From IMG/VR virus record IMGVR_UViG_3300010042_000003, positions 1 through 44,739 of that record: a DNA stretch of 44,739 bases; one strand, given 5' to 3'. Source of the stretch: a virus. The notes under the pieces are model-generated. The model did not search any database, was not told the origin of the DNA, and saw only the letters and a list, made by a program, of their open reading frames with translations. A program made the translations under genes and the position numbers. Of the stretch, positions 2,851-37,730 are shown piece after piece. Numbering within the stretch: position 1 is the stretch's first letter; each line of letters opens with the position of its first letter.

Positions 2851-3135
2851 TTAATCTTTTATTTCTTCTTTGAAGTTTGGCCCGGCTTCACCCAGGTAAG
2901 CGGCTATCCTTTCGTGCATTTCTGTTTGGTCCGCATCGCTGAACCCTCTAAACCTGGACCGGCACGGGTAAACGTCTTTGACCGGTGCATTCTCTCCTAG
3001 TTCCTTATAGTTTTCAACTTCTACAACCAACGACCACCCGAAAGCTTGCAAAACTAAGTTCACAAACATGAAGAGTCCTGATTTCCTAAACTCTTCCCAG
3101 GTTTTTCGCTCTAAATTTTTACTCATTTTTTCCAT
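2851..3135 (-). CDS. Conserved hypothetical phage protein
   Basis: 94 aa. It reads WEEFRKSGLFMFVNLVLQAF followed by a segment ending YPCRSRFRGFSD, a pattern I recall in uncharacterised Bacteroidota phage proteins (hydrophobic helix, then VYPxRxxFRGF). An alternative start is MSKN at 3126. It is the last gene of the minus cassette and ends 2 bp from the shared terminator. There is no visible catalytic motif. Confidence 0.65.
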   Translation of the reverse strand: MEKMSKNLERKTWEEFRKSGLFMFVNLVLQAFGWSLVVEVENYKELGENAPVKDVYPCRSRFRGFSDADQTEMHERIAAYLGEAGPNFKEEIKD

Positions 3136-3141
3136 ATTTAT

Positions 3142-3492
3142 CTATTTAATTATTGGCCTGACATCCAGTCCGCCTTTAAAAATGTGATCGAGCATCTGCG
3201 GTTTGTTGCGCATCTTCTGGCACTGTTTTAAAGTCGGCCTGTACCATTCTTGTGTAGGTTCTTTTTCGGGATCTACATCTTTGTAAAATGTGCTTTGCGC
3301 GGTATGCCCGCACTTTTCGCAGGTGTGCATAAAAGGTGTTCTACCTTCGTGTATATCAATCGTTTTAGTGATATGCAAGCATTTAGGTTGCAAACAGGTA
3401 TAGCAGTTGATTCGGTCGTCTTTTGCAGGTTCTGTTTTGATCTTTGAATAGAGGCGTTCTACCTCTCTCATTGACATTGATTTTTTACTCAT
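3142..3492 (-). CDS. Zinc-finger-like small protein
   Basis: 116 aa. Cysteine and histidine pairs are visible: C30/C33, C38/H40, then C58/C61 with H63 in CEKCGH. This is a likely zinc-binding fold of the zinc-ribbon type. The C-terminus is basic (TLKQCQKMRNKP). It overlaps the upstream gene by 4 bp (ATGA), indicating translational coupling. It may bind nucleic acid; the partner is unknown. Confidence 0.65.
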   Translation of the reverse strand: MSKKSMSMREVERLYSKIKTEPAKDDRINCYTCLQPKCLHITKTIDIHEGRTPFMHTCEKCGHTAQSTFYKDVDPEKEPTQEWYRPTLKQCQKMRNKPQMLDHIFKGGLDVRPIIK

Positions 3493-3731
3493 TTTATGGG
3501 ATTAAAAGTTAATCTAAATGTGAAGTTTGTTACCTGTTCACCTTTCGGTGGTACATGACTCACGGTTCCGCTGGTTACAAATTCACCGTTTTTATCGAAC
3601 AGATACCCGGTGTGGTCGGAGAAAAGTTGCATTTTAGAGCCGTCATCGTCGAATATTTCTGCCACCAGCTTCGGGGCTTCAGGTTTGGGTAGTGCGCCCA
3701 AACTTTTTAAAATTTTAAACGTTGCGTGCAT
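3489..3731 (-). CDS. Hypothetical small protein
   Basis: 80 aa. The core is strand-rich with a turn-like pattern (IFDDDGSKMQLFSDHTGYLF), resembling a small beta domain. It overlaps its upstream neighbour by 17 bp and its downstream neighbour by 4 bp, so it sits firmly within the minus-strand cassette. The function was not recognised. Confidence 0.6.
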   Translation of the reverse strand: MHATFKILKSLGALPKPEAPKLVAEIFDDDGSKMQLFSDHTGYLFDKNGEFVTSGTVSHVPPKGEQVTNFTFRLTFNPIK

Positions 3732-4062
3732 GTAGACATTGTTCTATGTACTGGTTAATAATAAAAGCAATTTCCGGTGCGTAAGGCATCACTTTAATAA
3801 GCTCAGGCGTGACCCCATTGTTTTCCAGGAAATAACGTACTTTGTCCGGATCTATTTCAGCGGAAACCACCGCAAAAGGTTCAATACGGTTAAATGTGTG
3901 CTTTAAAACAACGTGATAAATTTGCGGCATCCCGTGCGTGTATCTGAGTATTTCAGCAGTGACTACGCTGTTAAAATGATCCAGGACGTTATTAAAATTG
4001 GGCAAACACTCAACCGAACCGGTGTACCCAACGTTTGAACAGAATGTTAAATTTTCCACCAT
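3715..4062 (-). CDS. Hypothetical protein
   Basis: 115 aa, starting at ATGGTGGAA. It is mixed alpha/beta with no motif that I can name, and ends with a Cys/His pair (EQCLHARNV). It overlaps the gene upstream by 16 bp and the gene downstream by 17 bp, which argues for co-translation in the cassette. The function is unknown. Confidence 0.6.
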   Translation of the reverse strand: MVENLTFCSNVGYTGSVECLPNFNNVLDHFNSVVTAEILRYTHGMPQIYHVVLKHTFNRIEPFAVVSAEIDPDKVRYFLENNGVTPELIKVMPYAPEIAFIINQYIEQCLHARNV

Positions 4063-4541
4063 GGCTTTTTAGCTTTACGTACCATTTCGTTTAAATTGTT
4101 TTTCAGACCATAATTGCCCACAGTTCTATGAGAGCCGTAGCCTGCTGCTAAAGCTGCTGATTTCGCACGAGAAGATATGGGCTTTAATTTTTCCATGATC
4201 GTTGCCCCACCTTGATAGCCCATCGCCAATAATACCCGCTGTTCTGCAGATTTAAGATCCGCAAAAATAACGCACGATATATTGCGCCTCGTAAGAAAGT
4301 ATTTATAATGATTGTATTCACGGAGCAGCTGCAATCTTTTTTGCATAAGTGCAGATCTGTGCATGATTTCATAAAATGGTGCGGGTTCATCTGTTACGAT
4401 TTCATCGTGAACCCAATTATCTCTGTTTGATTCTATCCAGGTGCTACACCTTAAAGTTAAAATCTGTATCTCCATGGTAAGCGCCAAACATTCTAATCTG
4501 ATGTCCAGTGCTTTTTCTAAATATTCGGTGGATATTTTCAT
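4047..4541 (-). CDS. Hypothetical helical protein behind a paired-operator promoter
   Basis: 164 aa, predicted mostly helical. The C-terminal part (SSRAKSAALAAGYGSHRTVG) is basic and could resemble a DNA-binding helix pair, but I cannot assign a helix-turn-helix. The ATG at 4541 is only 4 bases after a TACATTTG element on the minus strand, which lies inside a pair of TGTATTACA-like sites. That gives this gene its own promoter within the cassette and predicts a leaderless message. Confidence 0.65.
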   Translation of the reverse strand: MKISTEYLEKALDIRLECLALTMEIQILTLRCSTWIESNRDNWVHDEIVTDEPAPFYEIMHRSALMQKRLQLLREYNHYKYFLTRRNISCVIFADLKSAEQRVLLAMGYQGGATIMEKLKPISSRAKSAALAAGYGSHRTVGNYGLKNNLNEMVRKAKKPWWKI

Positions 4542-4546
4542 AAGCC

Positions 4547-4592
4547 AAATGTATTACATTTTGTATTACTTATTTGTATCATTTACGTTACA
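4547..4592 (-). promoter_or_regulatory. Minus-strand promoter overlapped by paired TGTATTACA-type sites (site A)
   Basis: On the + strand, tgtattaca is at 4550-4558 and tgtattact at 4562-4570, 12 bp apart, with weaker relatives at 4575 (tgtatcatt) and 4584 (tacgttaca). Each 9-mer is a near-palindrome (TGTA-x-TACA). Read on the minus strand, the innermost site runs into TACATTTG, a TAnnTTTG-type -7 element, 4 bases before the ATG at 4541. The same pair occurs at 23560-23580 and 31515-31535. Confidence 0.7.
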
Positions 4593-4826
4593 TTTAAGAT
4601 TTTCAGATAGAAGATAAAAACGTTTATTATCCGATGGGTAAAAATCAACCAGGCGTTTTCGGTTATACAGTAGGATTTCAAAACACTTAACCAGATAAGC
4701 TATCCGGCTCGGATGTTTTTTGTATTCCGGGGCTTTCAACCGCAGCACTACCAGATCCATGTCCATATTTAATTTCAAAGCCTCTAACTTCTGATCTATA
4801 ATGTGAAACCTTGAGTCAATATCCAT
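4566..4826 (-). CDS. Hypothetical small helical protein
   Basis: 86 aa from the ATG at 4826; an in-frame TTG at 4832 overlaps the -7 element and is rejected as start. The protein is helical and basic, with heptad-like leucines (DQKLEALKLNMDMDLVVLRL). It is the first gene of the minus cassette. The gene's end overlaps the operator-like repeats of the next promoter (4547-4592), so it may be terminated or re-initiated there. The function is unknown. Confidence 0.6.
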   Translation of the reverse strand: MDIDSRFHIIDQKLEALKLNMDMDLVVLRLKAPEYKKHPSRIAYLVKCFEILLYNRKRLVDFYPSDNKRFYLLSENLKCNVNDTNK

Positions 4827-4829
4827 GGT

Positions 4830-4837
4830 CAAATATA
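4830..4837 (-). promoter_or_regulatory. Minus-strand -7 element for the small-gene cassette
   Basis: TATATTTG on the minus strand, three bases (acc) before the ATG at 4826. It matches the Bacteroidota TAnnTTTG -7 consensus. The spacing implies transcription starting at or very near the A of the start codon. Confidence 0.65.
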
Positions 4838-4877
4838 AAAGGTTTTAATTTATGTACCCGGTACCAATTATGTTACG

Positions 4878-20279: not shown

Positions 20280-20471
20280 TTAATCCGCTTTTTTGATACG
20301 GTACCAAAGAAGCCAGTAAGCTGAAACTACGGCCCACACAATCGCCAGAACTATTCTTGTTTTGTACCCGAACATTAAAGGGTTCAAACTGGCGGACTTA
20401 ATAACACCCGTAGTATACACGAAGAGTGTAATAAAAAACACGGGTTTAAGATAATAGATATACTTTTTCAT
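20280..20471 (-). CDS. Small membrane protein
   Basis: 63 aa from the ATG at 20471; the longer frame to 20531 overlaps the mazG-like gene and is rejected. It has two hydrophobic segments: residues 8-24 (KPVFFITLFVYTTGVI) and about 41-57 (VLAIVWAVVSAYWLLWY). It is the last gene of the minus operon. The function is unknown. Confidence 0.6.
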   Translation of the reverse strand: MKKYIYYLKPVFFITLFVYTTGVIKSASLNPLMFGYKTRIVLAIVWAVVSAYWLLWYRIKKAD

Positions 20472-20475
20472 ATCC

Positions 20476-20922
20476 TTAATCTTTAACAAAAGTGTTATTG
20501 AACATCTTACCTTTCCGATCGGCGATCTCATTGTATGCTATCTCTAAACAAGATTTGAAATCCAGCGAATGGTAAGTGGCGAAGCGTTGCAATAAACAAT
20601 ATGCGGTACCCAGGTACTCAGGTACGATTGCGGCTATACAGCCTACAAAATGTATTAATGTAGGCCTTTCAATATATCCCAGATCCACGTCTTTCAGTTC
20701 GGTATTACGCATCTTTGCCAGGATAAGTAAAGTTACGGCCATGTCGCCTATACCGTCCACAAACTTAAGGTTATCCTGTTTGAGTTGCGCGGCCGCGGTT
20801 TCGCCGGTTTCTTCCAGGACCTTTAAAGTTTGGGCTTCGATTCTCTGATCTGTGATGTCAGTTAACAGTCCTTTATCCTCAGCCCATTGGATAACCGCCG
20901 CTTCTAATTCGTCTAGTGTCAT
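20476..20922 (-). CDS. MazG-like nucleotide pyrophosphohydrolase
   Basis: 148 aa. The metal-binding signature of the MazG family is visible: VLEETGE (E37, E38, E41) and DGIGDM (D56, D60). The C-terminal AYNEIADRKGKMFNNTFVKD is close to the ending seen in phage MazG-like proteins. Such enzymes hydrolyse NTPs or (p)ppGpp-related nucleotides and may keep the infected cell metabolically active. It overlaps the upstream gene by 4 bp. The exact substrate is not predictable. Confidence 0.85.
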   Translation of the reverse strand: MTLDELEAAVIQWAEDKGLLTDITDQRIEAQTLKVLEETGETAAAQLKQDNLKFVDGIGDMAVTLLILAKMRNTELKDVDLGYIERPTLIHFVGCIAAIVPEYLGTAYCLLQRFATYHSLDFKSCLEIAYNEIADRKGKMFNNTFVKD

Positions 20923-21155
20923 GATATTTTAAAATGATTTTTAATTTTATAAGCTAAAACTTGTTCCTGCGGTGTTTTTGCGTTCACAGTAAGAAAATCA
21001 CTCAGTTCTGAAAATTCCCGGCCTTGCAGGGTATCCAGCGCTGCTGTACGGATCAGTAAATGGGGTTTACACCCTTTCGCCGCCGCCAGCTTTGTTAAGT
21101 CCTCAAGTTCCTGAGTAGTGAACCTGATAGAAACGGGTTTAGACGTTTTGCTCAT
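20919..21155 (-). CDS. Ribbon-helix-helix DNA-binding protein
   Basis: 78 aa from the ATG at 21155. The N-terminus SKPVSIRFTTQELEDLTKLA has the short strand (VSIRFT) plus helix pattern of ribbon-helix-helix regulators, followed by a second helix (CKPHLLIRTAALDTL). It is the only protein in the window with a convincing DNA-binding regulator fold, so it is a candidate reader of the paired TGTATTACA sites. It overlaps the upstream gene by 17 bp. Confidence 0.7.
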   Translation of the reverse strand: MSKTSKPVSIRFTTQELEDLTKLAAAKGCKPHLLIRTAALDTLQGREFSELSDFLTVNAKTPQEQVLAYKIKNHFKIS

Positions 21156-21600
21156 TCGGTATAACTTTACAGGTATGTATACTCGCAATACCGAAATGAC
21201 CTTTATCATCTAAGATTACGAGCCTTGGTACTCTAGCGGATATTACGTGCCTCGAGCCGGTTTCTCCGGGTTCAAAACCGAACCATTGCACCATTTGTGC
21301 AGCAGATAAAACTTCCTGCGGCGCTGTTTGATATATGCAGGTACCTTTCCAACCGTTACCGCTAAAAAGCGGCTTGACTTCCACTTTTTTACCTACATAT
21401 TGCTGTTCATCTACTTTTTTAAAACGACGTTTTTTAAGTATTACCCTTCCGACAGCACTTGCTACGAAAATAGCAGGACGTCCTTTTGCAGAAAAAGTGC
21501 GGATCTTATCAATGTTATCTTTGATAATCGGCTTATACTCTTCTTTTGTGTAGCCTCTTTGTTTAAGTAAATTCTTAATTGCTTTTTTGTACTCTTTCAT
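21139..21600 (-). CDS. Hypothetical protein
   Basis: 153 aa with a Lys-rich N-terminal 70 residues (KKRRFKKV) and a mixed C-terminal half (GFEPGETGSRHVISARVPRL). There is no recognisable motif. It is coupled to the 57-aa gene upstream by an ATGA overlap and to the RHH gene downstream by 17 bp. Confidence 0.65.
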   Translation of the reverse strand: MKEYKKAIKNLLKQRGYTKEEYKPIIKDNIDKIRTFSAKGRPAIFVASAVGRVILKKRRFKKVDEQQYVGKKVEVKPLFSGNGWKGTCIYQTAPQEVLSAAQMVQWFGFEPGETGSRHVISARVPRLVILDDKGHFGIASIHTCKVIPNEQNV

Positions 21601-21770
21601 GATATTTTATAAGTTTTAAAGTTTTCACCTTCCCATGAAGGTTTTAGATTTCTGATTAATTGTTTAGCCGCTTTTACGCTGATATTCGAATAGAATTTAT
21701 TACCGTTACGGCCCGTTTTGGTAATGAACGCCTTGGTTCTCTCGCCTGTACGAATTGTTACGGTTTTCAT
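21597..21770 (-). CDS. Small basic protein
   Basis: 57 aa: MKTVTIRTGERTKAF at the start and NLKPSWEGENFKTYKIS at the end. It is strongly basic. Four-base ATGA overlaps join it to both neighbours, the main support that it is real. It could bind nucleic acid, but no family was recognised. Confidence 0.6.
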   Translation of the reverse strand: MKTVTIRTGERTKAFITKTGRNGNKFYSNISVKAAKQLIRNLKPSWEGENFKTYKIS

Positions 21771-22039
21771 ACTTCAACATCAAATTGCCATTCTTGAGGC
21801 GGTGCGTACCTGGTCTTTAAAGTTTCTATCGCATACTGTTCAGCGAGGGTATAAGTTTCGAATGTACGTATCGGACCGAAACCGTTTACACCAACTGTCC
21901 AAGACTTCCATTTCTTAACGGTGTACGTTTTAAGGTTTATAAAAGGTCCCCAACCCGCATCCCTAACTTCTGTACAGTCTACCTCGGTTTGGATACTATA
22001 GAGACCGTTTCTGTATACTATTTTTACTGGTATTTTCAT
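21767..22039 (-). CDS. Small hypothetical protein
   Basis: 90 aa from the ATG at 22039; the open frame extends to 22096, but that part overlaps a coupled micro-gene. It is beta-rich with many aromatic residues (AGWGPFINLKTYTVKKWKSW). It has ATGA overlaps on both sides. The function is unknown. Confidence 0.6.
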   Translation of the reverse strand: MKIPVKIVYRNGLYSIQTEVDCTEVRDAGWGPFINLKTYTVKKWKSWTVGVNGFGPIRTFETYTLAEQYAIETLKTRYAPPQEWQFDVEV

Positions 22040-22119
22040 CTCGTATAATAAATTAAAAATGTAGAAGCTATGATGCCGCCGATCCAGACGATCCATAAAA
22101 TGATTTTTATATAATCCAT
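22036..22119 (-). CDS. 27-aa membrane micro-protein
   Basis: Only 27 aa: MDYIKII then a hydrophobic helix (LWIVWIGGIIASTFLIYY) ending TR. Its stop overlaps the next start (ATGA) and its start lies inside the end of the upstream micro-gene. Protein-like composition plus coupling on both sides support a real membrane peptide. The function is unknown. Confidence 0.5.
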   Translation of the reverse strand: MDYIKIILWIVWIGGIIASTFLIYYTR

Positions 22120-22226
22120 CTTGTGAAAATTATGTAACATATCGCTATTGTGACCAGCACAAAAAAGGTCTGACAATAAGGTAAAGGTTTTAACGGCCGG
22201 TCCTCTTTTTTATACAGTTTCTTCAT
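22107..22226 (-). CDS. 39-aa membrane micro-protein
   Basis: 39 aa with a basic N-terminus (MKKLYKKEDRPLKPLPY) and one hydrophobic helix (CQTFFVLVTIAICYIIF). It overlaps the upstream gene by 17 bp and the downstream 27-aa gene by 13 bp. The arrangement suggests a single-span membrane peptide with its N-terminus in the cytoplasm. Confidence 0.5.
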   Translation of the reverse strand: MKKLYKKEDRPLKPLPYCQTFFVLVTIAICYIIFTRWII

Positions 22227-22455
22227 CAGTGATAAGTTTACTATCGTTGTACCACGTAGTTGTAATGCTACATTGCATAAGAACAGTTTCAGCCGTGGAA
22301 TCTAACATCTCAGATGACCTTTCGATCCTTTCTTCTCTGTGCGGGTAACCTTCGGGTAAACGTGCTGCCAGATCCAATTCCGACAAAGCAGATAAGTAGT
22401 TATCTATGGTACGTTTAAGCTTAAGAATGTAAGCCGATTTCTGAACCCGCGACAT
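22210..22455 (-). CDS. Small hypothetical protein
   Basis: 81 aa. The first half is helical and basic (QKSAYILKLKRTIDNYLSAL) and the second part carries an acidic, Ser/Thr-rich segment. Its start codon overlaps the upstream stop by one base (TAATG). No family was recognised. Confidence 0.6.
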   Translation of the reverse strand: MSRVQKSAYILKLKRTIDNYLSALSELDLAARLPEGYPHREERIERSSEMLDSTAETVLMQCSITTTWYNDSKLITDEETV

Positions 22456-22604
22456 TACTTTAAAGATTTATATAAACAATAAACGACACACAGCAAAGCA
22501 ATTGCCAGTTGTGCGCCTATAACTACAGCACCAGAACAGTTAATACTTACGGTGTAATGGAAAAAATCTGGTGACCAGTTGGCCGGTGTTGAAGTGTTAT
22601 ACAT
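22455..22604 (-). CDS. 49-aa membrane micro-protein
   Basis: 49 aa: a polar N-terminus (NTSTPANWSPDFFHYTV) and a C-terminal hydrophobic helix (VVIGAQLAIALLCVVYCL). It lies 4 bp after the hexapeptide-repeat gene and shares a base with the next start codon. The orientation suggests an external N-terminus. The function is unknown. Confidence 0.5.
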   Translation of the reverse strand: MYNTSTPANWSPDFFHYTVSINCSGAVVIGAQLAIALLCVVYCLYKSLK

Positions 22605-22608
22605 AATT

Positions 22609-23532
22609 TTACAGATTAAATTTTATTTTTATCAGATCAATTATAGAAAGGTATTCTCTAGCGTATTTAGATTCTTTATGCGTTAACTTAACTTGAGTTT
22701 CGAACTCTAGTAAGTCTCCGAAAAAGCAGCCGCAGGAGACTTTAACGGTTAAAGATTCCTTTATCTTGTATGCAGTAGTGGTACGATTCTCAGAACCAAA
22801 CCCGGTAAATAAACACCAATCGTTATTTGATTTTATGTCTGCATCCCCGTACACCTTAGCATTCCCGTACACCTTAGCATTCCCGGACACCCAGGCATTC
22901 CCGTACACCCAGGCATCCCCGGACACCCAGGCATTCCCGTACACCTTAGCATTCCCGTACACCCAGGCATTCCCGTACACCTTAGCATTCCCGTACACCC
23001 AGGCATCCCCGGACACCAAGGCATCCCCGTACACCTTAGCATTCCCGTACACCAAGGCATCCCCGTACACCCAGGCATTCCCGTACACCTTAGCATTCCC
23101 GTACACCTCAGCATCCCCGTACACCTTAGCATTCCCGTACACCTTAGCATTCCCGTACACCTTAGCATTCCCGTACACCTTAGCATTCCCGGACACCTCA
23201 GCATCCCCGTACACCTTAGCATTCCCGGACACCCAGGCATTCCCGGACACCTTAGCATTCCCGGACACCCAGGCATCCCCGGACACCAAGGCATCCCCGT
23301 ACACCAAGGCATTCCCGTACACCAAGGCATTCCCGGACACCAAGGCATCCCCGGACACCTCAGCATCCCCGTACACCCAGGCATTCCCGGACAGGTTGTC
23401 TAGTGATGATACCCACCCGCCTATTTCACCCTCTTCAGCGTATTTAGTTTTAACGGTGGCTTTAATCCTGAAAACGGTTAAGCCTAAAAAATTAATCTTC
23501 GTTTCTGTTGTTAGTTCAAAGTGTTTTTTCAT
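22609..23532 (-). CDS. Hexapeptide-repeat (left-handed beta-helix) protein
   Basis: 307 aa. After a 47-residue N-terminal segment ending GEIGGWVSSLDN come 31 uninterrupted hexapeptides of the form (Y/S)-G-(N/D)-A-(K/W/L/E)-V at residues 48-233, the signature of a left-handed beta-helix. The C-terminal part carries TTTAYK and CGCFFGDLLEF, a tail I recall from similar phage and bacterial proteins of unknown role. With 18 residues per turn the helix would have about 10 turns. There are no acyltransferase residues, so an architectural or binding role is likely. It has its own paired-operator promoter. Confidence 0.85.
   Translation of the reverse strand: MKKHFELTTETKINFLGLTVFRIKATVKTKYAEEGEIGGWVSSLDNLSGNAWVYGDAEVSGDALVSGNALVYGNALVYGDALVSGDAWVSGNAKVSGNAWVSGNAKVYGDAEVSGNAKVYGNAKVYGNAKVYGNAKVYGDAEVYGNAKVYGNAWVYGDALVYGNAKVYGDALVSGDAWVYGNAKVYGNAWVYGNAKVYGNAWVSGDAWVYGNAWVSGNAKVYGNAKVYGDADIKSNNDWCLFTGFGSENRTTTAYKIKESLTVKVSCGCFFGDLLEFETQVKLTHKESKYAREYLSIIDLIKIKFNL
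22834..23391 (-). repeat. 18-bp tandem repeat, 31 units, inside the hexapeptide gene
   Basis: 31 units of 18 bp, almost identical, varying at a few fixed positions: gtac or ggac (Tyr or Ser), att or atc (Asn or Asp), and the codon for K, W, L or E. Because units are multiples of three with no stops, all frames look open on both strands; only the hexapeptide frame is credible. The array is likely to change length by recombination. Confidence 0.95.
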
Positions 23533-23555: not shown

Positions 23556-23587
23556 CAAATGTAATACAATTTGTAATACAAAACAAA
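23556..23587 (-). promoter_or_regulatory. Promoter with paired TGTATTACA sites (site B)
   Basis: On the minus strand: TTTG (23587-23584), a 20-bp spacer, and TACATTTG (23563-23556). Two TGTATTACA 9-mers at 23572-23580 and 23560-23568 (12 bp apart) fill the spacer and overlap the -7 element. The element is almost identical to that at 31508-31539. The start codon follows after 23 bases. Confidence 0.75.
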
Positions 23588-23608: not shown

Positions 23609-23639
23609 AAACCCCCTGATACCGTGTAAAAGGGGGTTT
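23609..23639 (-). terminator. Intrinsic terminator of the left replication operon
   Basis: The stem aaaccccct / agggggttt (9 bp) has a 13-nt loop. On the minus strand it continues into a T-rich tract, while the + direction lacks one. It lies 20 bp after the DUF2815 stop. Confidence 0.85.
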
Positions 23640-31507: not shown

Positions 31508-31539
31508 TTTGTTTTGTATTACAAATTGTATTACATTTA
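31508..31539 (+). promoter_or_regulatory. Promoter with paired TGTATTACA sites (site C)
   Basis: TTTG (31508-31511), a 20-bp spacer, and TACATTTA (31532-31539). TGTATTACA lies at 31515-31523 and again at 31527-31535, 12 bp apart. The layout is the same as that at 23556-23587 on the other strand. The start codon of the next gene follows after 24 bases. Confidence 0.72.
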
Positions 31540-31563: not shown

Positions 31564-31839
31564 ATGAAAAAACAAATATTCTATGGTATAACGTTCTATT
31601 TTGAAAATTTCGATCATAGATTAGATTCAGATTTACTAGGCGAAATATTATCTGCTAGATTTATGTCGGGATTTAATTTAGAAGGTTTAAAAAGGAAACC
31701 TCTTTCAGAACTTTTCAAAGATAGTTTCCCCTTCATCAGATTTATAGTTTTGTACAAAGTTACCGGAAGGAAAAACCGCTCAGAACGTGAATACTCAGTA
31801 TCAGAATACTTAATTTCTAAAACGTTTTATACTTTATAA
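31564..31839 (+). CDS. Small hypothetical protein
   Basis: 91 aa with aromatic-rich strands (IFYGITFYFENFDHRL) and a basic region (TGRKNRSEREYSV). It is the first gene after the paired-operator promoter and begins a stretch that looks more A/T-rich than the replication genes around it. No family was recognised. Confidence 0.65.
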   Translation: MKKQIFYGITFYFENFDHRLDSDLLGEILSARFMSGFNLEGLKRKPLSELFKDSFPFIRFIVLYKVTGRKNRSEREYSVSEYLISKTFYTL

Positions 31840-31840
31840 T

Positions 31841-31939
31841 ATGGAAACTTCGAATATTAAAAAACAATTTCAAATAGTTATGCTTAGCGCTATTGCTGTT
31901 TTAATTTATGTGTCGTACTTAGCGGTGACTGTATTATGA
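31841..31939 (+). CDS. 32-aa membrane micro-protein
   Basis: 32 aa: METSNIKKQF then a hydrophobic helix (IVMLSAIAVLIYVSYLAVTV). It starts 1 bp after the previous stop and overlaps the next gene by 4 bp (ATGA). These links and its composition support a real single-span peptide of unknown role. Confidence 0.5.
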   Translation: METSNIKKQFQIVMLSAIAVLIYVSYLAVTVL

Positions 31940-32145
31940 AAATAGAAGGCCTATCGGTTCATCAATTTAAACTTATAGAAGTTAAACCGGTTTCAATAAC
32001 TTTCTCCAATAACACAAAGGTAGTTAATGAAGTAAATTTGAAATTCGAAAGTTCCGGGGTTCAAAAGGTTTCGGGATATTTATACATAAACAGAGAATCG
32101 GCTATAGAGATATTAGAGGCACTCAAGAAAACTTTCGAATTATAA
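31936..32145 (+). CDS. Small hypothetical protein
   Basis: 69 aa, alternating strands (FKLIEVKPVSITFSNNTKVV) and a C-terminal helix (ESAIEILEALKKTF). It resembles a small alpha/beta domain. It ends 3 bp before the PAPS-reductase-like gene. The function is unknown. Confidence 0.6.
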   Translation: MKIEGLSVHQFKLIEVKPVSITFSNNTKVVNEVNLKFESSGVQKVSGYLYINRESAIEILEALKKTFEL

Positions 32146-32148
32146 AAA

Positions 32149-33027
32149 ATGAGAAAAGCTAAAATCGATCAAAAAGCAATATTTTCAAAATTCAAAATAG
32201 ATCCGTCTTTTGATTTAATTTCGAAATATAATCCTGTAATCGCATGGTGGTCTGGCGGACTAGATAGTGCAATTGTTTGTAAACTGTGTATCGATAAATT
32301 TGGAAGAGAAAACGTAAGAATAGTTTTTATCGATACTAAAAACGAAGATCCGGATACTTATCGCTTTTTAAAAGATTGTGAAAAATGGTACGCTTTAAAA
32401 ATAGAAACTATATCTTCAAAACAATACAGCAGTATAAAAGAAGTTTGGCGGGAATTTTTATCGCTGAATGTCGCTACAGGTGCTATTTGCTCAAGCGAAT
32501 TAAAACGAGAAGTTAGAATCGCATTCGGTAAAAAAAACGCATTTAGTTATCAAGCTTTTGGCTTTGATAAAAAGGAATTGAAACGCGCTAATGGTATGCT
32601 TAAAAATTATTATTTCATAAAACCTATTTTTCCATTAATTGAAAAAGGTTATTCTAAACAAAATTGCCTCGATTTATTAAATTTCGCAGGTATAAAAATA
32701 CCCGTAGTCTACTCTTACGGATTTCACAATAACAACTGTTTTAGAACTGGATGCGTACAGGGCGGGGTAGGATATTGGCAAAAAATGAAATTGGATTTCC
32801 CAGATAAATTCGATGATATGGCGCTTATGGAACATGAGTTAACTAATGAAAAAGGTATTCCCGTAACTATCCTAAAGGATCAGTCTAAAATTTCAAAAGG
32901 CCTGGTATTTTTAAAACCTCATCCAGACTACCCGGGCGTTAAAGATATATCTATGATGAAAGGTGTAACTATAAAACCGCTTGCTGAATGTAACGGTTTC
33001 TGTAATAAAGAAAACTTTCCATCATGA
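32149..33027 (+). CDS. PAPS-reductase-like PP-loop protein
   Basis: 292 aa. The PP-loop SGGLDSA at residues 35-41 (after IAWW) and VFIDTKNEDPDTYRFL identify the PAPS reductase / adenine nucleotide alpha-hydrolase superfamily. Cysteines in GAICSSELKRE, CFRTGC (about 197-202) and CNGFC (about 281-285) could bind a cluster or take part in sulfur transfer. It overlaps the cytosine methyltransferase start by 4 bp, so the two are co-translated. Phage members are usually uncharacterised; DndC-like DNA sulfur chemistry is possible but unproven. The DNA looks more A/T-rich than the methyltransferase gene. Confidence 0.82.
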   Translation: MRKAKIDQKAIFSKFKIDPSFDLISKYNPVIAWWSGGLDSAIVCKLCIDKFGRENVRIVFIDTKNEDPDTYRFLKDCEKWYALKIETISSKQYSSIKEVWREFLSLNVATGAICSSELKREVRIAFGKKNAFSYQAFGFDKKELKRANGMLKNYYFIKPIFPLIEKGYSKQNCLDLLNFAGIKIPVVYSYGFHNNNCFRTGCVQGGVGYWQKMKLDFPDKFDDMALMEHELTNEKGIPVTILKDQSKISKGLVFLKPHPDYPGVKDISMMKGVTIKPLAECNGFCNKENFPS

Positions 33028-34370
33028 GACACGGCTCTTTATTCAGCGGCACGGGGGGATTTGATCTCGCAGCTCAGTGGACGGGTTGGGAGAATGTTTT
33101 TCATTGTGAATGGAATCCTTTCGGACAAAAAATATTAAAATATTACTGGCCAAACGCCGCAAGTTATGACGACATCACAAAAACAGACTTTACCAGATAC
33201 AGAGGGAAAATTGACATTCTTACAGGCGGATTCCCCTGCCAGCCATACAGCACAGCAGGAAAGCGACGAGGTAAAGAAGACGATCGCCACCTCTGGCCGG
33301 AAATGCTTAGAGCAATTCGGGAAATCCAGCCTAAATGGGTCGTGGGCGAAAACGTTTCCGGTATTATTAGTTGGGATGGCGGGCTGGTATTCGAAGAGGT
33401 GCAAACTGATTTGGAAACTGAAGGTTACCAGGTACAACCGTACGTACTTCCAGCTGCAGGCATCGGCGCACCGCATAAAAGAGAAAGAGTCTGGTTTATT
33501 GCCTACCGTGCAGACGCAGGGATTAAAAGTATGCAACGATCAGGGGAAAACGGAATTCATGGATTTGAAACTTCTTCCCACACCACAAGCGATAGACGGG
33601 AACGGTTCGGGGCGGGATCTTCGCCTGAAGACAGGCAACAGAGATCCGCAGAGTCCGGGGAGTTGGCGCGGCGATCTGAAGGATTTTGCGCACCTGGGTT
33701 TGCTTCCGACACCAACGGCTTCGGAGGGCAGAGAAACCCCGGGGTCGGGAGTTCCTTTTGTTACAGCGACAGGAACTGTCAGGCGCCGGAACTCGGACGG
33801 TACATCATCTCAGATGGGCCTGATAGCAACGGTAAAACACATGCTACCAACCCCAACGGCACAGGACTTCAAACGCCGGGGGCCGAACAGCAGACAGCAG
33901 GGCCTCAGCAATACGGAGAACTGGCTACACCTGCTACCAACACCAACGAACTCAATGGTGACCTTTCAGGACTTCATACAAGCGGGATTTCACAGCAGCA
34001 AGCGGCCTATTTACTCGGAGATCAAGCGGCCGTCCTTGTTGCCGACACCGACGGCAACTTCGGATGCGAAAGGGGGTTGCATCCGGACAGATCCGAAGAG
34101 ACAAAACGACACGTTAGCCCATGCGATACACGCTTATACAGGCGGGGAGACTGGGAAAAGTTCCCAACTCAATCCGGCGTTTGTTCTGGAAATGATGGGC
34201 TTTCCGCCAGACTGGACACTGCTGCCCTTCTTAACGGGCAAAAAGCACGTGGAAACTGGAAGCCTTTCAGCAAATGGCGAGCAGAATCAATAAAAGCCGC
34301 CGGGAACGCCATAGTTCCACAGGTAGCTTACCAGATATTCAAAGCAATAGAAATGTATCAAAAATTATAA
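33024..34370 (+). CDS. dcm: DNA (cytosine-5) methyltransferase
   Basis: 448 aa. Motif I: SLFSGTGGFDLAA. Motif IV: FPCQPYS with catalytic C72. Motif VI: ENVSG (E109). Motif VIII region: GIGAPHKRERVWFIAY. Motif X: GNAIVPQ (427-432). Between about residues 175 and 400 lies a low-complexity region with recurring A(S/D)TN-G and TNPNG segments in place of a normal recognition domain. This is exactly where a second long frame (33166-34293) overlaps. It methylates cytosine in DNA, probably to protect against host restriction. The gene symbol is generic. Confidence 0.9.
   Translation: MRHGSLFSGTGGFDLAAQWTGWENVFHCEWNPFGQKILKYYWPNAASYDDITKTDFTRYRGKIDILTGGFPCQPYSTAGKRRGKEDDRHLWPEMLRAIREIQPKWVVGENVSGIISWDGGLVFEEVQTDLETEGYQVQPYVLPAAGIGAPHKRERVWFIAYRADAGIKSMQRSGENGIHGFETSSHTTSDRRERFGAGSSPEDRQQRSAESGELARRSEGFCAPGFASDTNGFGGQRNPGVGSSFCYSDRNCQAPELGRYIISDGPDSNGKTHATNPNGTGLQTPGAEQQTAGPQQYGELATPATNTNELNGDLSGLHTSGISQQQAAYLLGDQAAVLVADTDGNFGCERGLHPDRSEETKRHVSPCDTRLYRRGDWEKFPTQSGVCSGNDGLSARLDTAALLNGQKARGNWKPFSKWRAESIKAAGNAIVPQVAYQIFKAIEMYQKL
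33166..34293 (+). CDS. Nested +1-frame protein inside the cytosine methyltransferase gene
   Basis: 375 aa, completely contained in the methyltransferase gene in the +1 frame, with no stop over 1128 nt. It is not random: it has ATSGRKCLEQFGKSS near 41-55, LIWKLKVTRYNRTYFQLQAS near 81-100, and six spaced LLPTP-type motifs (about 111, 136, 179, 226, 256, 291). It ends with LNPAFVLEMMGFPPDWTLLP (335-354), which resembles the motif-IX-adjacent segment of C5 methyltransferases. I recall homologous sequences from Bacteroidota elements. It could be a partner or recognition subunit. Expression is not proven. Confidence 0.65.
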   Translation: MTTSQKQTLPDTEGKLTFLQADSPASHTAQQESDEVKKTIATSGRKCLEQFGKSSLNGSWAKTFPVLLVGMAGWYSKRCKLIWKLKVTRYNRTYFQLQASAHRIKEKESGLLPTVQTQGLKVCNDQGKTEFMDLKLLPTPQAIDGNGSGRDLRLKTGNRDPQSPGSWRGDLKDFAHLGLLPTPTASEGRETPGSGVPFVTATGTVRRRNSDGTSSQMGLIATVKHMLPTPTAQDFKRRGPNSRQQGLSNTENWLHLLPTPTNSMVTFQDFIQAGFHSSKRPIYSEIKRPSLLPTPTATSDAKGGCIRTDPKRQNDTLAHAIHAYTGGETGKSSQLNPAFVLEMMGFPPDWTLLPFLTGKKHVETGSLSANGEQNQ

Positions 34371-34373
34371 ATT

Positions 34374-34586
34374 ATGAAAAAGCCGATTAGTAAAGTAAAG
34401 TACGGACTGGAAAATTTCTTGTGCGGTTCATGTAGTACCGGAATTGTTCAGGTGTTAACTGTTTCATCAAGGGGTACTTTTACACAAAAAGTTAACGGTT
34501 GTCTGGATTGTAAAACCGAATACGGTTTGCTTCAGGCAGCGCGATTAGAGAAATGTCCAGTCAATAAACCTACTTTTTACGCATAG
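34374..34586 (+). CDS. Zinc-ribbon-like small protein
   Basis: 70 aa with CxxC pairs at C17/C20 (CGSC) and C43/C46 (CLDC), 22 residues apart, a typical zinc-ribbon spacing. It lies 3 bp after the methyltransferase stop. It probably binds nucleic acid or a protein partner; the function is unknown. Confidence 0.65.
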   Translation: MKKPISKVKYGLENFLCGSCSTGIVQVLTVSSRGTFTQKVNGCLDCKTEYGLLQAARLEKCPVNKPTFYA

Positions 34587-34622
34587 TTATGAGGTGTGAA
34601 AAACTTGATAAAAATTAAGTCT

Positions 34623-35117
34623 ATGAAAGGTAAGATAATACTTGATGCCTGTTGCGGAAGTAAAATGTTTTGGTTTGACAAAACTAATCCTAACACCTTA
34701 TTTGCCGACGTAAGATCAAAAACACATACTTTGTGCGATGGGAGATTATTAGAGATTTCCCCGGATGTTGAGCACGATTTTAGAAATATGCCTTATCCAG
34801 ATAACAGTTTTAAAATGGTGGTGTTTGATCCACCGCATCTTTTGAAATTAGGTAAAAATAGTTGGATGGCTAAAAAATACGGTATCTTAAACCCTACATG
34901 GGAAATAGATTTAAAAGCCGGGTTCGATGAATGTATGCGGGTTTTAGAACCTTTTGGTACTCTGATTTTCAAGTGGAACGAAAACCAAATAAAAATAGGA
35001 CAGGTTTTGAAATTAATCCAATACGACTATAAGCCTATCGTCGGGCACCGTTCCGGCAAATCTGGTGATACGCACTGGTTAGTTTTTATGAAAGGCTTAC
35101 AAAATGGAAAAGCTTAA
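34623..35117 (+). CDS. Class I SAM-dependent methyltransferase (DPPH type)
   Basis: 164 aa from the ATG at 34623; an in-frame GTG at 34596 is possible but less likely. Motif I-like ILDACCGSKMFWF at residues 5-17, FADVRSK as an acidic loop, MVVFDPPHLL with DPPH at 69-72, and the C-terminal HRSGKSGDTHWLVFMKG all match a common phage methyltransferase family. The DPP-type motif suggests methylation of an exocyclic amino group (adenine N6 or cytosine N4), but the substrate is not certain. It overlaps the next gene by 14 bp. Confidence 0.85.
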   Translation: MKGKIILDACCGSKMFWFDKTNPNTLFADVRSKTHTLCDGRLLEISPDVEHDFRNMPYPDNSFKMVVFDPPHLLKLGKNSWMAKKYGILNPTWEIDLKAGFDECMRVLEPFGTLIFKWNENQIKIGQVLKLIQYDYKPIVGHRSGKSGDTHWLVFMKGLQNGKA

Positions 35118-35349
35118 AAGCCTTTATATAGATCGCCCTACGGGGCTATCTCCTGTAACACCGGATGATTTCCTGGTAACGATTGGTGTCAAGCGATCAA
35201 ACAGTGTTTACCACGTTGCAGAAGTCAGAGCAAAACCTAAAGGCAGGTGGACCAGGTACTATTTAAAAGTTTACGACTCCGATCTGGTTACCGCCTTAAA
35301 AAGATCCACTACTCAAAAATTAATTCCTTTAACCTGGTATAAACGATAA
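35104..35349 (+). CDS. Small basic hypothetical protein
   Basis: 81 aa, basic, with two strand-like segments (FLVTIGVKR and RYYLKVYDSDLV). It overlaps the methyltransferase by 14 bp. No family was recognised. Confidence 0.6.
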   Translation: MEKLKSLYIDRPTGLSPVTPDDFLVTIGVKRSNSVYHVAEVRAKPKGRWTRYYLKVYDSDLVTALKRSTTQKLIPLTWYKR

Positions 35350-35355
35350 ACTGAA

Positions 35356-35592
35356 ATGCTATACAAATTAAGACTTACACGGTCGGATGAAAACTTTGCC
35401 ACCGTTGACATTCCCGGCGACTTCTTTATGCGACCCGGGGATACAATTCAATACGCCGGTAACCTACACCAGTTGAAACACATTATTCGGCCAGCGTTTA
35501 CATACACGGACGGAAAACAAAACTTAACAGCTGAACAACTGGTACAAGGATACCCTATTCTGATTGTCAGTGATGAATATTTAACACTTTAA
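35356..35592 (+). CDS. Small hypothetical protein
   Basis: 78 aa, beta-rich, with PGDFFMRPGDTIQYAG suggesting a small barrel-like fold. It lies in a run of tightly packed small + genes between the methyltransferase and helicase. The function is unknown. Confidence 0.6.
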   Translation: MLYKLRLTRSDENFATVDIPGDFFMRPGDTIQYAGNLHQLKHIIRPAFTYTDGKQNLTAEQLVQGYPILIVSDEYLTL

Positions 35593-35595
35593 AAA

Positions 35596-36135
35596 ATGGA
35601 CATACAAGATATAGCAATAGCGGAATATTGTAAAGAGTCGGAAAGAGATGGGTTTTTATTCAGCGTGGATAACGGTTGTTCATTAGATAAGAGTAACGGA
35701 TATTGCGCTGGATACATTAACGGATTTAAAAAAGGCTACGTAGATCAACAAGAACGCATAGCGGAATTAGAAAACATCGTAAAAGACCTTAACGGAATGT
35801 ATAAAGAACGTGTATCAATGCAAACCGGTATTCCTGAAGATAAAAAACCAATGCTTACACCGCTATTTGATTTTTTAATCGAAGGTGACCGGGTGAAAGC
35901 CCGTGATCTCGCTAAAGCAATAGTACGACATAAAGGTGCGAACCATGTTCCTTTGATAAACTGCTATGAGCCGCCATTGATTGTGGGGTTCACATACGTA
36001 ATACCTGATAAAGTTTATAAAGAGGCGATTTACATCGGACTGGATAAGGGTAACTTTATCTTTTACCTGGCAAACGATGACGAGTTAACGCTCTTCAAAA
36101 CTCAAGACGATAACACTTTTTACCCTGTAGATTAA
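35596..36135 (+). CDS. Hypothetical protein with short coiled coil
   Basis: 179 aa. A helix near 50-75 (QQERIAELENIVKDLNGMYK) looks like a coiled coil, and the C-terminal half (YEPPLIVGFTYVIPDKVY) is beta-rich. It starts 4 bp after the previous gene and ends 6 bp before the next. No catalytic motif. Confidence 0.65.
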   Translation: MDIQDIAIAEYCKESERDGFLFSVDNGCSLDKSNGYCAGYINGFKKGYVDQQERIAELENIVKDLNGMYKERVSMQTGIPEDKKPMLTPLFDFLIEGDRVKARDLAKAIVRHKGANHVPLINCYEPPLIVGFTYVIPDKVYKEAIYIGLDKGNFIFYLANDDELTLFKTQDDNTFYPVD

Positions 36136-36141
36136 AATATC

Positions 36142-36363
36142 ATGATTATAAAAGCAATATTCAAAAACGAGGATCAGCGTACGGGCTATAAAAAAGGTCT
36201 GCCTTACATATTAGATATGACCTTCGCAATGGTGCGGGCACCTTACTCAAGGAACAAAACCGAAATGATCCTTATCCGTACAACCATTGATACCGACCCC
36301 GATCCCATCTTCTATGAAAGTCTGGCCGGTATGCTTGAATCCTGGGATATTCTGCCGGTATGA
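36142..36363 (+). CDS. Small hypothetical protein upstream of the helicase
   Basis: 73 aa, alpha/beta, with no motif that I can name. Its stop overlaps the helicase start by 4 bp (ATGA), so the two are co-translated; it may be a helicase partner. Confidence 0.6.
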   Translation: MIIKAIFKNEDQRTGYKKGLPYILDMTFAMVRAPYSRNKTEMILIRTTIDTDPDPIFYESLAGMLESWDILPV

Positions 36364-37730
36364 AGTACATCCCGCACGATTATCAACAGATAGCAATAGC
36401 CCACGCGTTAAAACATAAACGTTGTGGGCTTATTCTTGACATGGGGTTGGGTAAGACCTCTGTAGTGCTTACAGTGCTGCATGAACTCAAGTACGGCATG
36501 GAGATCCGCAAACCACTCATCATCGGCACGAAACTGATCGTTGAGAAAACATGGACAGATGAGCGGGATAAATGGGATCACACCCGTAAACTGACCATTT
36601 CCCGAATCGTCGGCACCGAAGCCGAACGCATAGCCGCTCTTAAGGTTAAAGCCGACATATACGCTATATCAAGAGACAACATCGTTTGGCTGGTGGATCA
36701 CCTGGGCCTTAAGGGTTTTGACTTCGATATGGTCGTGGTAGATGAATCCAGTTCATTTAAGAACCGTGCATCGAACCGGTTCGAAGCCCTGATAAAAGTT
36801 TTACCCCGCGTAGCCAGAACCATTATAATGACAGGTACCTTTATACCCAACGGCCTTATCGATCTGTGGGCGCAGATGTTCCTGCTGGACTTCGGGGTAA
36901 GACTTGATAAGAACATAGGCGGTTACCGTGCCCGCTATTTCCGGCCGGACCAGCGTAACGAGTACGGCGGTGTTTTATCTTATAAGGTGGTGCCAGGCGC
37001 TGAAAAATCTATCTACAATAAAATAGGTGACATCTGCATCAGCATGCAGGCAAAAGACTGGTTATCGCTCAAACCACGGGAAGACAGGATCGAAGCGATC
37101 ATCCTTCCGGAAATGGCCGCTTATAAAGAGTTCAAACGCACAGAGGTGCTTAAGCTTGAGGATACGCTAATATCACCGGCCACGGCTGCGGTTATGTATA
37201 ACAAGCTGCTGCAATTCTCCAACGGCGCCGTTTACGATGATGAGGGAAACTTCCACGTAGTGAGCACGGCTAAACTCGATGCACTGAGTGAGAAGGTAGA
37301 AAACCTTAACGGAAAACCTGTCCTGATATTTTATCAGTTCAGATCCGATCTTTTCCGCATACAGGAGCGTTTCGGTAAACTGGTTACTGTTCTGAAAGGT
37401 GGTGCTGAGATAGATGCCTGGAATGCCGGCAAAATACCTGTGCTGCTTGCGCACCCGGCCAGCGCCAGCCACGGATTGAACCTTCAGAAAGGCGGGAACC
37501 ACGTGGACTGGTTCGGGGTGCCATGGAGTTCTGAGCTTTATCTGCAGGGTTGCGCCCGCGTGGACCGGCAGGGCCAGGATGAAATCGTACTGAATAATCA
37601 CCTGTTATGCGAGGGTACTATCGATGATCTCGTTAAAAAAAGATTGGAAGGAAAAATAATCACACAAGATGACCTGTACCGGAACATAGGTATAAGACCC
37701 GTGAACGGAAAAGTGCGTGTTATACTTTAA
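36360..37730 (+). CDS. SNF2-type DEAD/DEAH-box helicase
   Basis: 456 aa. Motif I: ILDMGLGKTS (K32). Motif II: VVVDESSSFKN (D128-E129, a DES-type box). Motif III: IIMTGTFIPNGLIDLW near 157. The C-terminal helicase half has SHGLNLQKGG near 370 and QGCARVDRQGQ near 396 (motif VI). This is the compact SNF2 helicase that accompanies VapE and VRR-NUC genes in phage replication modules. It is the last gene of the right replication operon and is followed by the origin-like region. Confidence 0.92.
   Translation: MKYIPHDYQQIAIAHALKHKRCGLILDMGLGKTSVVLTVLHELKYGMEIRKPLIIGTKLIVEKTWTDERDKWDHTRKLTISRIVGTEAERIAALKVKADIYAISRDNIVWLVDHLGLKGFDFDMVVVDESSSFKNRASNRFEALIKVLPRVARTIIMTGTFIPNGLIDLWAQMFLLDFGVRLDKNIGGYRARYFRPDQRNEYGGVLSYKVVPGAEKSIYNKIGDICISMQAKDWLSLKPREDRIEAIILPEMAAYKEFKRTEVLKLEDTLISPATAAVMYNKLLQFSNGAVYDDEGNFHVVSTAKLDALSEKVENLNGKPVLIFYQFRSDLFRIQERFGKLVTVLKGGAEIDAWNAGKIPVLLAHPASASHGLNLQKGGNHVDWFGVPWSSELYLQGCARVDRQGQDEIVLNNHLLCEGTIDDLVKKRLEGKIITQDDLYRNIGIRPVNGKVRVIL

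Follow-up and report, generated by a model that had tools for sequence, protein, structure and literature searches.

Paired palindromes over three predicted promoters

The stretch considered in this study, referred to below as the window, is the whole of IMG/VR virus record IMGVR_UViG_3300010042_000003 (44,739 bases, which may be a genome fragment), and judged by its promoter-like boxes and by weak matches it is taken as coming from a Bacteroidota phage. The window contains three instances of an operator-like element, referred to as the pair, that consists of two units of TGTATTACA whose starts are 12 bp apart in every case (TGTATTACA-N3-TGTATTACA). Each pair precedes a putative transcription unit (Table 1). 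An initial annotation gave the positions, the 12-bp spacing and the slightly degenerate third pair exactly as they are found: in the whole window, TGTANTACANNNTGTANTACA occurs perfectly at 23560-23580 and 31515-31535 and with one mismatch at 4550-4570. The five exact instances of TGTANTACA in the 44,739 bases all lie within the three pairs.

Table 1. Features of the window connected with the three pairs. The extents of units A, B and C as operons are predicted.
Feature	Position	Strand	Description
Operator pair 1	31515..31535	+	TGTATTACA-AAT-TGTATTACA; upstream of plus-strand unit beginning 31564
-7 box at pair 1	31532..31539	+	TACATTTA; TTTG 31508-31511, spacing 20; predicted transcription start 31544
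Unit B, behind pair 1	31564..37730 (predicted end)	+	Small open reading frames of no assigned family; PAPS-reductase-like, DNA methyltransferase-like and putative helicase-like genes
Operator pair 2	23560..23580	-	Identical to pair 1 in all 21 bases; precedes minus-strand unit beginning 23532
-7 box at pair 2	23556..23563	-	TACATTTG; TTTG 23584-23587, spacing 20; predicted start 23551
Probable intrinsic terminator	23609..23639	-	Between pair 2 and the genes upstream; 9-bp stem, then T-run; -15.7 kcal/mol, z -3.59
Unit A, behind pair 2	20280..23532	-	Beta-solenoid repeat protein, small open reading frames, ribbon-helix-helix gene, MazG-like protein
Ribbon-helix-helix protein, candidate repressor	20919..21155	-	78 aa, strand KPVSIRF; shares its minus-strand gene run with pair 2
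Operator pair 3	4550..4570	-	One mismatch; overlaps stop codon of open reading frame 4566-4832; directly before ATG 4541
-7 box at pair 3	4546..4553	-	TACATTTG; no TTTG 14-24 bp upstream; predicted +1 coincides with the A of ATG 4541
Unit C, behind pair 3	2851..4541	-	Five small genes of no assigned family; then a terminator-like stem at about 2815-2850 (read by eye)

Chance does not readily produce this arrangement. With up to three mismatches, three pairs are observed against 0.24 expected, a number reached by one of 100 shuffled sequences, and not a single pair at one mismatch or fewer was present in 2000 Markov-1 sequences matched to the window in length and dinucleotide composition. Equal frequency in shuffled sequence, the outcome that the initial annotation had named as counting against a regulon, is therefore not what is seen. 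The excess over chance is limited to the pair: an excess of the single 9-mer TGTATTACA was considered and rejected (21 instances at one mismatch or fewer, against 14.3 expected, with 7 of 100 shuffles reaching 21). The three sites should not be counted as three separate events. Since sites 1 and 2 agree at 37 of 40 bases around the promoter, they are not independent occurrences and are probably copies of one promoter; among the 161 TAnnTTT(G/A) anchors in the window they form the only couple to reach 29 of 40 identical bases. Site 3 differs from them outside the pair.

The final four bases of each pair open a -7 box, so that the overlap with TAnnTTT(G/A) claimed earlier is found at site 1 (TACATTTA) as well as at sites 2 and 3 (TACATTTG), and so is the TTTG placed 20 bp upstream in two cases. 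Compared with the sigma-A promoters of Bacteroidota (TAnnTTTG), then, the -7 box is present at all three sites (ending in A at one of them) and the TTTG at a spacing of 20 at two, site 3 having none within 14-24 bp upstream of its box; the paired palindromes are no part of that consensus. In Flavobacterium psychrophilum the TAnnTTTG box spans -12 to -5 (PMC9723704), and it is the application of this rule that gives the transcription starts in Table 1. With its predicted +1 at the A of ATG 4541, unit C would therefore be leaderless, a property ascribed in the same source to 5.5% of the F. psychrophilum mRNAs examined (PMC9723704). In the gene preceding pair 3 (4566-4841, minus strand), a -7-like TATATTTG is separated by three bases from an ATG at about 4826, and the two neighbouring genes may both be leaderless.

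The pair in other genomes and phages

Bacterial genome contigs were scanned for TGTAWTACA-N3-TGTAWTACA, which yielded at least 119 stretches (125 sites after merging). Many of the pairs listed lie a few bases before a start codon, and the products begin MITLRLDPELE or MISVRLSKELE, which I read as ribbon-helix-helix (RHH) antitoxins. By an expression for the RHH-type strand, composed after some of the matches had been seen, such a strand occurs in an open reading frame (ORF) starting within 120 bases at 42 of the 125 listed sites, compared to 80 of 4920 positions picked at random from those contigs, which suggests that about a third of the exact pairs listed stand just before RHH antitoxin genes. 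Pfam, which does not depend on the strand expression, finds RHH_1 in 33 and DUF6290 in 31 of the 141 ORFs behind listed pairs; in 141 control ORFs each RHH family has at most one match (none is named among the best 25 of 90 families, which include all those with two members).

The association was also approached from the other side, with Bacteroidota RHH genes drawn by family and not by motif. Among the 29 rows scored, the three (two loci) that match the profile of pair-associated antitoxins with an E value below 1e-20 have a pair upstream at two mismatches, and the remaining 26 come no closer to the pair than five. An exact pair is present in 3 of 395 Bacteroidota genomes, the backward control giving none. 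In two of these (L204, L205) the pair precedes an RHH gene that has a PIN-like toxin gene behind it (PIN read by eye), and in the third, which is the centre of the 395-genome sample and was picked because it has the pair, it belongs to a 12-bp tandem array before tRNA-Pro. On the strength of the Pfam check, the reverse test and the 395-genome scan, I regard the pair as an RHH operator type: TGTAnTACA-N3-TGTAnTACA is probably an operator of RHH antitoxins, recurring across many phyla. No account of this pair as an RHH antitoxin operator across phyla was found in a literature search that was itself partial. Were the recurrence borne out, it would offer a route to predicting the DNA targets of many uncharacterised antitoxins. 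The pattern with TTTG added had no match in the genome contigs.

Four viral records (G001-G004) carry TGTATTACA-NNT-TGTATTACA-TTTR, and in the pieces compared none of them was found to share a protein with the window. Their pairs (L001-L004), like all three in the window, run into a -7 box. Between site 1 and L002 there are 29 identical bases, a stretch extending beyond the pair. An RHH-like gene is the first behind the pair in G001 and the second in G002 and G004, as called from a pattern of strand plus helix, G003 being cut; the other matches to the RHH expression in the four records were judged by eye to be antisense or spurious ORFs. Because the G001 and G004 proteins are 93% identical, and so the same RHH, these two records count as one case. 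Each record has one exact pair, with an extra degenerate unit beside it in G001. Three pairs in one genome are particular to the window.

A candidate repressor and competing readings

Units A, B and C begin behind pairs 2, 1 and 3. Unit A is tightly packed, with frequent overlaps between starts and stops, and its genes follow one another on the same strand between pair 2 and the RHH gene. Its beta-solenoid repeat protein matches Pfam B_solenoid_ydck, and since MazG families are among the Pfam matches of the 37 window proteins scanned, I take 20476-20922 to be the MazG-like gene. A PADLOC scan of 10 window proteins for toxin or defence neighbours gave no match except PAPS-reductase-type ones for 32149-33027, and no toxin gene was recognised at the window operons. 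The anatomy of three apparent operons under one operator supports well the idea of a small regulon. To the initial annotation it looked phage-specific, and here a distinction is needed: the scarcity of exact pairs in Bacteroidota genomes and the same promoter in four phage records without detectable protein relationship to the window agree with that description, but the operator type itself is widespread before RHH antitoxin genes of many phyla.

In the explanation I propose, each pair would serve as a two-dimer RHH operator that covers the -7 box of a sigma-A promoter of Bacteroidota type. The four TGTA/TACA half-sites, with their 12-bp period, would take up two RHH dimers side by side and cooperatively, and the bound dimers would exclude RNA polymerase. 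The three operons would be at full strength when infection starts, until the RHH protein of 20919-21155, encoded in the operon behind pair 2, accumulated and shut down its own operon together with the other two. Repression is likelier than activation because the pair overlaps the promoter. That the pairs are RHH operators, whatever protein binds them, I consider probable; the whole proposal, with the phage's own RHH protein as the binder, I favour by little more than even chances.

The proposal belongs to a kind of system already known and would provide an additional case in a little-studied phage group. The nearest parallel is relO, the operator of E. coli relBE, whose RHH antitoxin RelB is described as binding four hexads [A/T]TGT[A/C]A that make up two adjoining 12-bp half-sites, with repression abolished by added spacing (PMC2812701). 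In its four TGTA-type half-sites, 12-bp repeat and overlap with the promoter, relO resembles the window pairs (PMC2812701, PMC3507626). Compared by reading with the relO hexad, pair 1 has two half-sites that agree completely and two that agree in 5 of 6 bases, and the step of two-dimer RHH operators, about 11-12 bp, is matched by the 12-bp repeat at all three sites. Unlike the window palindromes (TGTAnTACA, odd centre), those of relO are TGTAATTACA-like with an even centre, and unlike relO the window operator recurs at three operons and lacks a recognised toxin gene. The Arc protein of P22, which is tied to the ant gene of a temperate phage, is like the protein proposed here a phage-encoded RHH repressor, two of its dimers occupying neighbouring sites across a promoter. 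The Arc operator is 1 bp shorter than relO (PMC3507626) and has another sequence than the window pair. Aca repressors and the early promoters of SIRV2 also share with the proposal one regulatory sequence for several small early genes, the repressor gene being among the targets (PMC9410906, PMC11065993); the Aca families described are helix-turn-helix (HTH) proteins, in contrast to the RHH candidate here, whose companion genes have no anti-defence assignment.

The candidate is the only regulator-like protein found in the window, as far as family matches can tell. The RHH-type families named in the Pfam scan of the 37 proteins are NikA-like (E value 2.7e-4, 21.5 bits with a cut-off of 27) and DUF6290 (E value 0.017, 15.7 bits with a cut-off of 27), both below the curated cut-off, and no DNA-binding HTH family is among the best 25 of 33 families in that scan. 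The S-I-R-F strand of the protein aligns with the T/S-x-R-L strand of the antitoxins, the R being the one invariant column in 25 sequences. In an AlphaFold2 monomer (mean predicted local distance difference test score 78, and 90-97 over residues 11-40), an N-terminal stretch leads into helices spanning residues 14-27 and 31-45, and no strand is called anywhere in the model.

Several results weigh against the proposal. CopG, NikA, ParG and Arc are among the Foldseek matches of the window protein's model, but in every case at an E value above 0.5. The profile of pair-associated antitoxins, run on 2265 ORFs, misses the window protein and those of G001 and G004 at an E value of 5 or better, the G002 protein being on top at 0.24. 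Searches for relatives of the window protein found none in viral contigs and one weak match (E value 0.8) in phage records. Its gene is about the eighth or ninth behind pair 2 and not adjacent to it. The RHH-like proteins of G001 and G004 are without a Pfam match, and the model of the latter is a single low-confidence helix with no RHH fold. The RHH strand does not predict the operator, since the pair is missing at the genes of at least six Bacteroidota RHH proteins whose S/T-x-R strand is similar; nor is the N3 spacing exclusive, since pairs spaced by N4 also adjoin RHH-like genes (viral contigs L039 and L044). The spacing counts in viral contigs, 34 stretches with N3 and 12 with N4, form a weak test and were left unused, because 12 of the 34 share one AT-rich context in a single phage group and because of those N4 pairs. 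The window protein is thus not detectably close to the pair-associated antitoxins. This failure of the profile, together with the similar-strand proteins that have no pair, makes the identity of the binder the weakest link.

The last adverse result comes from relatives of the phage itself. The window's large helicase-primase-type protein has counterparts, 43-48% identical, in eight viral contigs, which also have several neighbour genes in common with the window (39-51% identity for the larger shared genes); no nearer genome, above about 51% protein identity, was found. In the whole records of these relatives the pair is absent, at two mismatches or fewer, from all eight. Conservation in related phages, the check proposed with the initial annotation, is accordingly missing in the eight found. 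In a few of these relatives there are repeated promoter-like stretches of another kind, as would be expected if control cassettes can be replaced. DNA matches of the promoter stretch to Bacteroides phage and Cellulophaga phage sequences were discarded as AT-rich and without the pair.

The first of two main rival readings places the binder in the host, the phage operons being held down by, or sensing, an RHH-PIN module there. The apparent role of the pair before antitoxin genes in many phyla, the RHH and PIN-like genes at L204 and L205 and the lack of detectable closeness between the phage protein and those antitoxins would all suit such an arrangement. Still, 3 exact pairs among 395 Bacteroidota genomes make it unlikely that a given host would carry such a repressor, and in three of the other four phage records with the pair, an RHH-like gene encoded by the phage itself comes after it, so I think a host antitoxin an unlikely binder. 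The second, also rather unlikely, is that no repressor is involved at all and that TGTATTACA...TACATTTG is merely a strong form of sigma-A promoter traded among phages. The -7 box that ends every pair in the window and in L001-L004, and the bases common to site 1 and L002 past the pair, are what a bare promoter would show as well; however, TAnnTTTG and a -33 element are all that a sigma-A promoter requires, and two palindromes of 9 bp set 12 bp apart have no place in it. The pair also precedes RHH genes in phyla with other promoters, and it is rarely found in its exact form, TGTAWTACA, in the chromosomes of Bacteroidota.

Operators of a different type, namely the Bacteroidetes SOS box, integrase arm sites or a partition site, seem very improbable. 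A Prevotella integrase gene family with the pair nearby (Arm-DNA-bind_5 in 4 of the 141 ORFs) and longer 12-bp arrays at some loci (L032, L099) point in their direction, but no integrase was seen among the window ORFs or among the 25 families listed in each of two scans of the 37 window proteins, and three dispersed promoter sites are unlike a centromere. The SOS (LexA-like) boxes of Bacteroidetes are GGA-N5-TCC or CTAA-N5-TTAG (PMC8565304), and inspection of the 21-bp pair found neither.

Little is known about regulators in Bacteroidota phages, whose hosts have unusual promoters. The two-dimer RHH operator proposed here would bring together, in one testable set, an operator of defined sequence, a putative repressor and the three operons it would control. 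A bolder analogy, which I consider unlikely, would make the pair-promoter a mobile early-gene control cassette of Bacteroidota phages, equipped with an Aca-like RHH repressor and placed before small, unrelated counter-defence genes. If true, the pair would be a search hook for counter-defence genes, the candidates being 31564, 31936 and 2851-4541 in the window and, in other phages, the genes behind the same promoter.

Arrays and multiple pairs at other loci

Pairs also occur in greater numbers. All eight exact TGTAWTACA-N3 pairs of one 2-Mb assembly (G017) are on a single contig of 29,452 bases (C11; L209, L210), where they stand before many operons. The contig is conjugative-plasmid-like, with type IV secretion, coupling protein, MobA/MobL, Rep3 and topoisomerase genes, and its pairs appear to form an element-wide regulon with the same operator type. 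Among the ORFs listed for the contig, none was recognised as an RHH gene. Contig L040 has three N4-spaced pairs within about 700 bases.

The single AT-rich phage group mentioned above (L009, L010, L015, L017-L019, L022, L027, L028, L031, L036 and L037) has in common a long array of imperfect TGTAATATATTACA-like units, which in most of the 12 contigs precedes a gene beginning MAL(K/E)QIEL or similar. In Prevotella-type elements (L059, L066, L073, L126, L133 and viral L021) a pair of TGTAATACA units with a further unit lies near a gene with an integrase-type N-terminus, and these units are perhaps integrase arm sites. Finally, L099 has at 1600-1690 a tandem array of the same palindrome, 7.6 copies of the 12-bp unit TACATTTTGTAA, directly before the tRNA-Pro of Flavobacterium salilacus (1691-1766).
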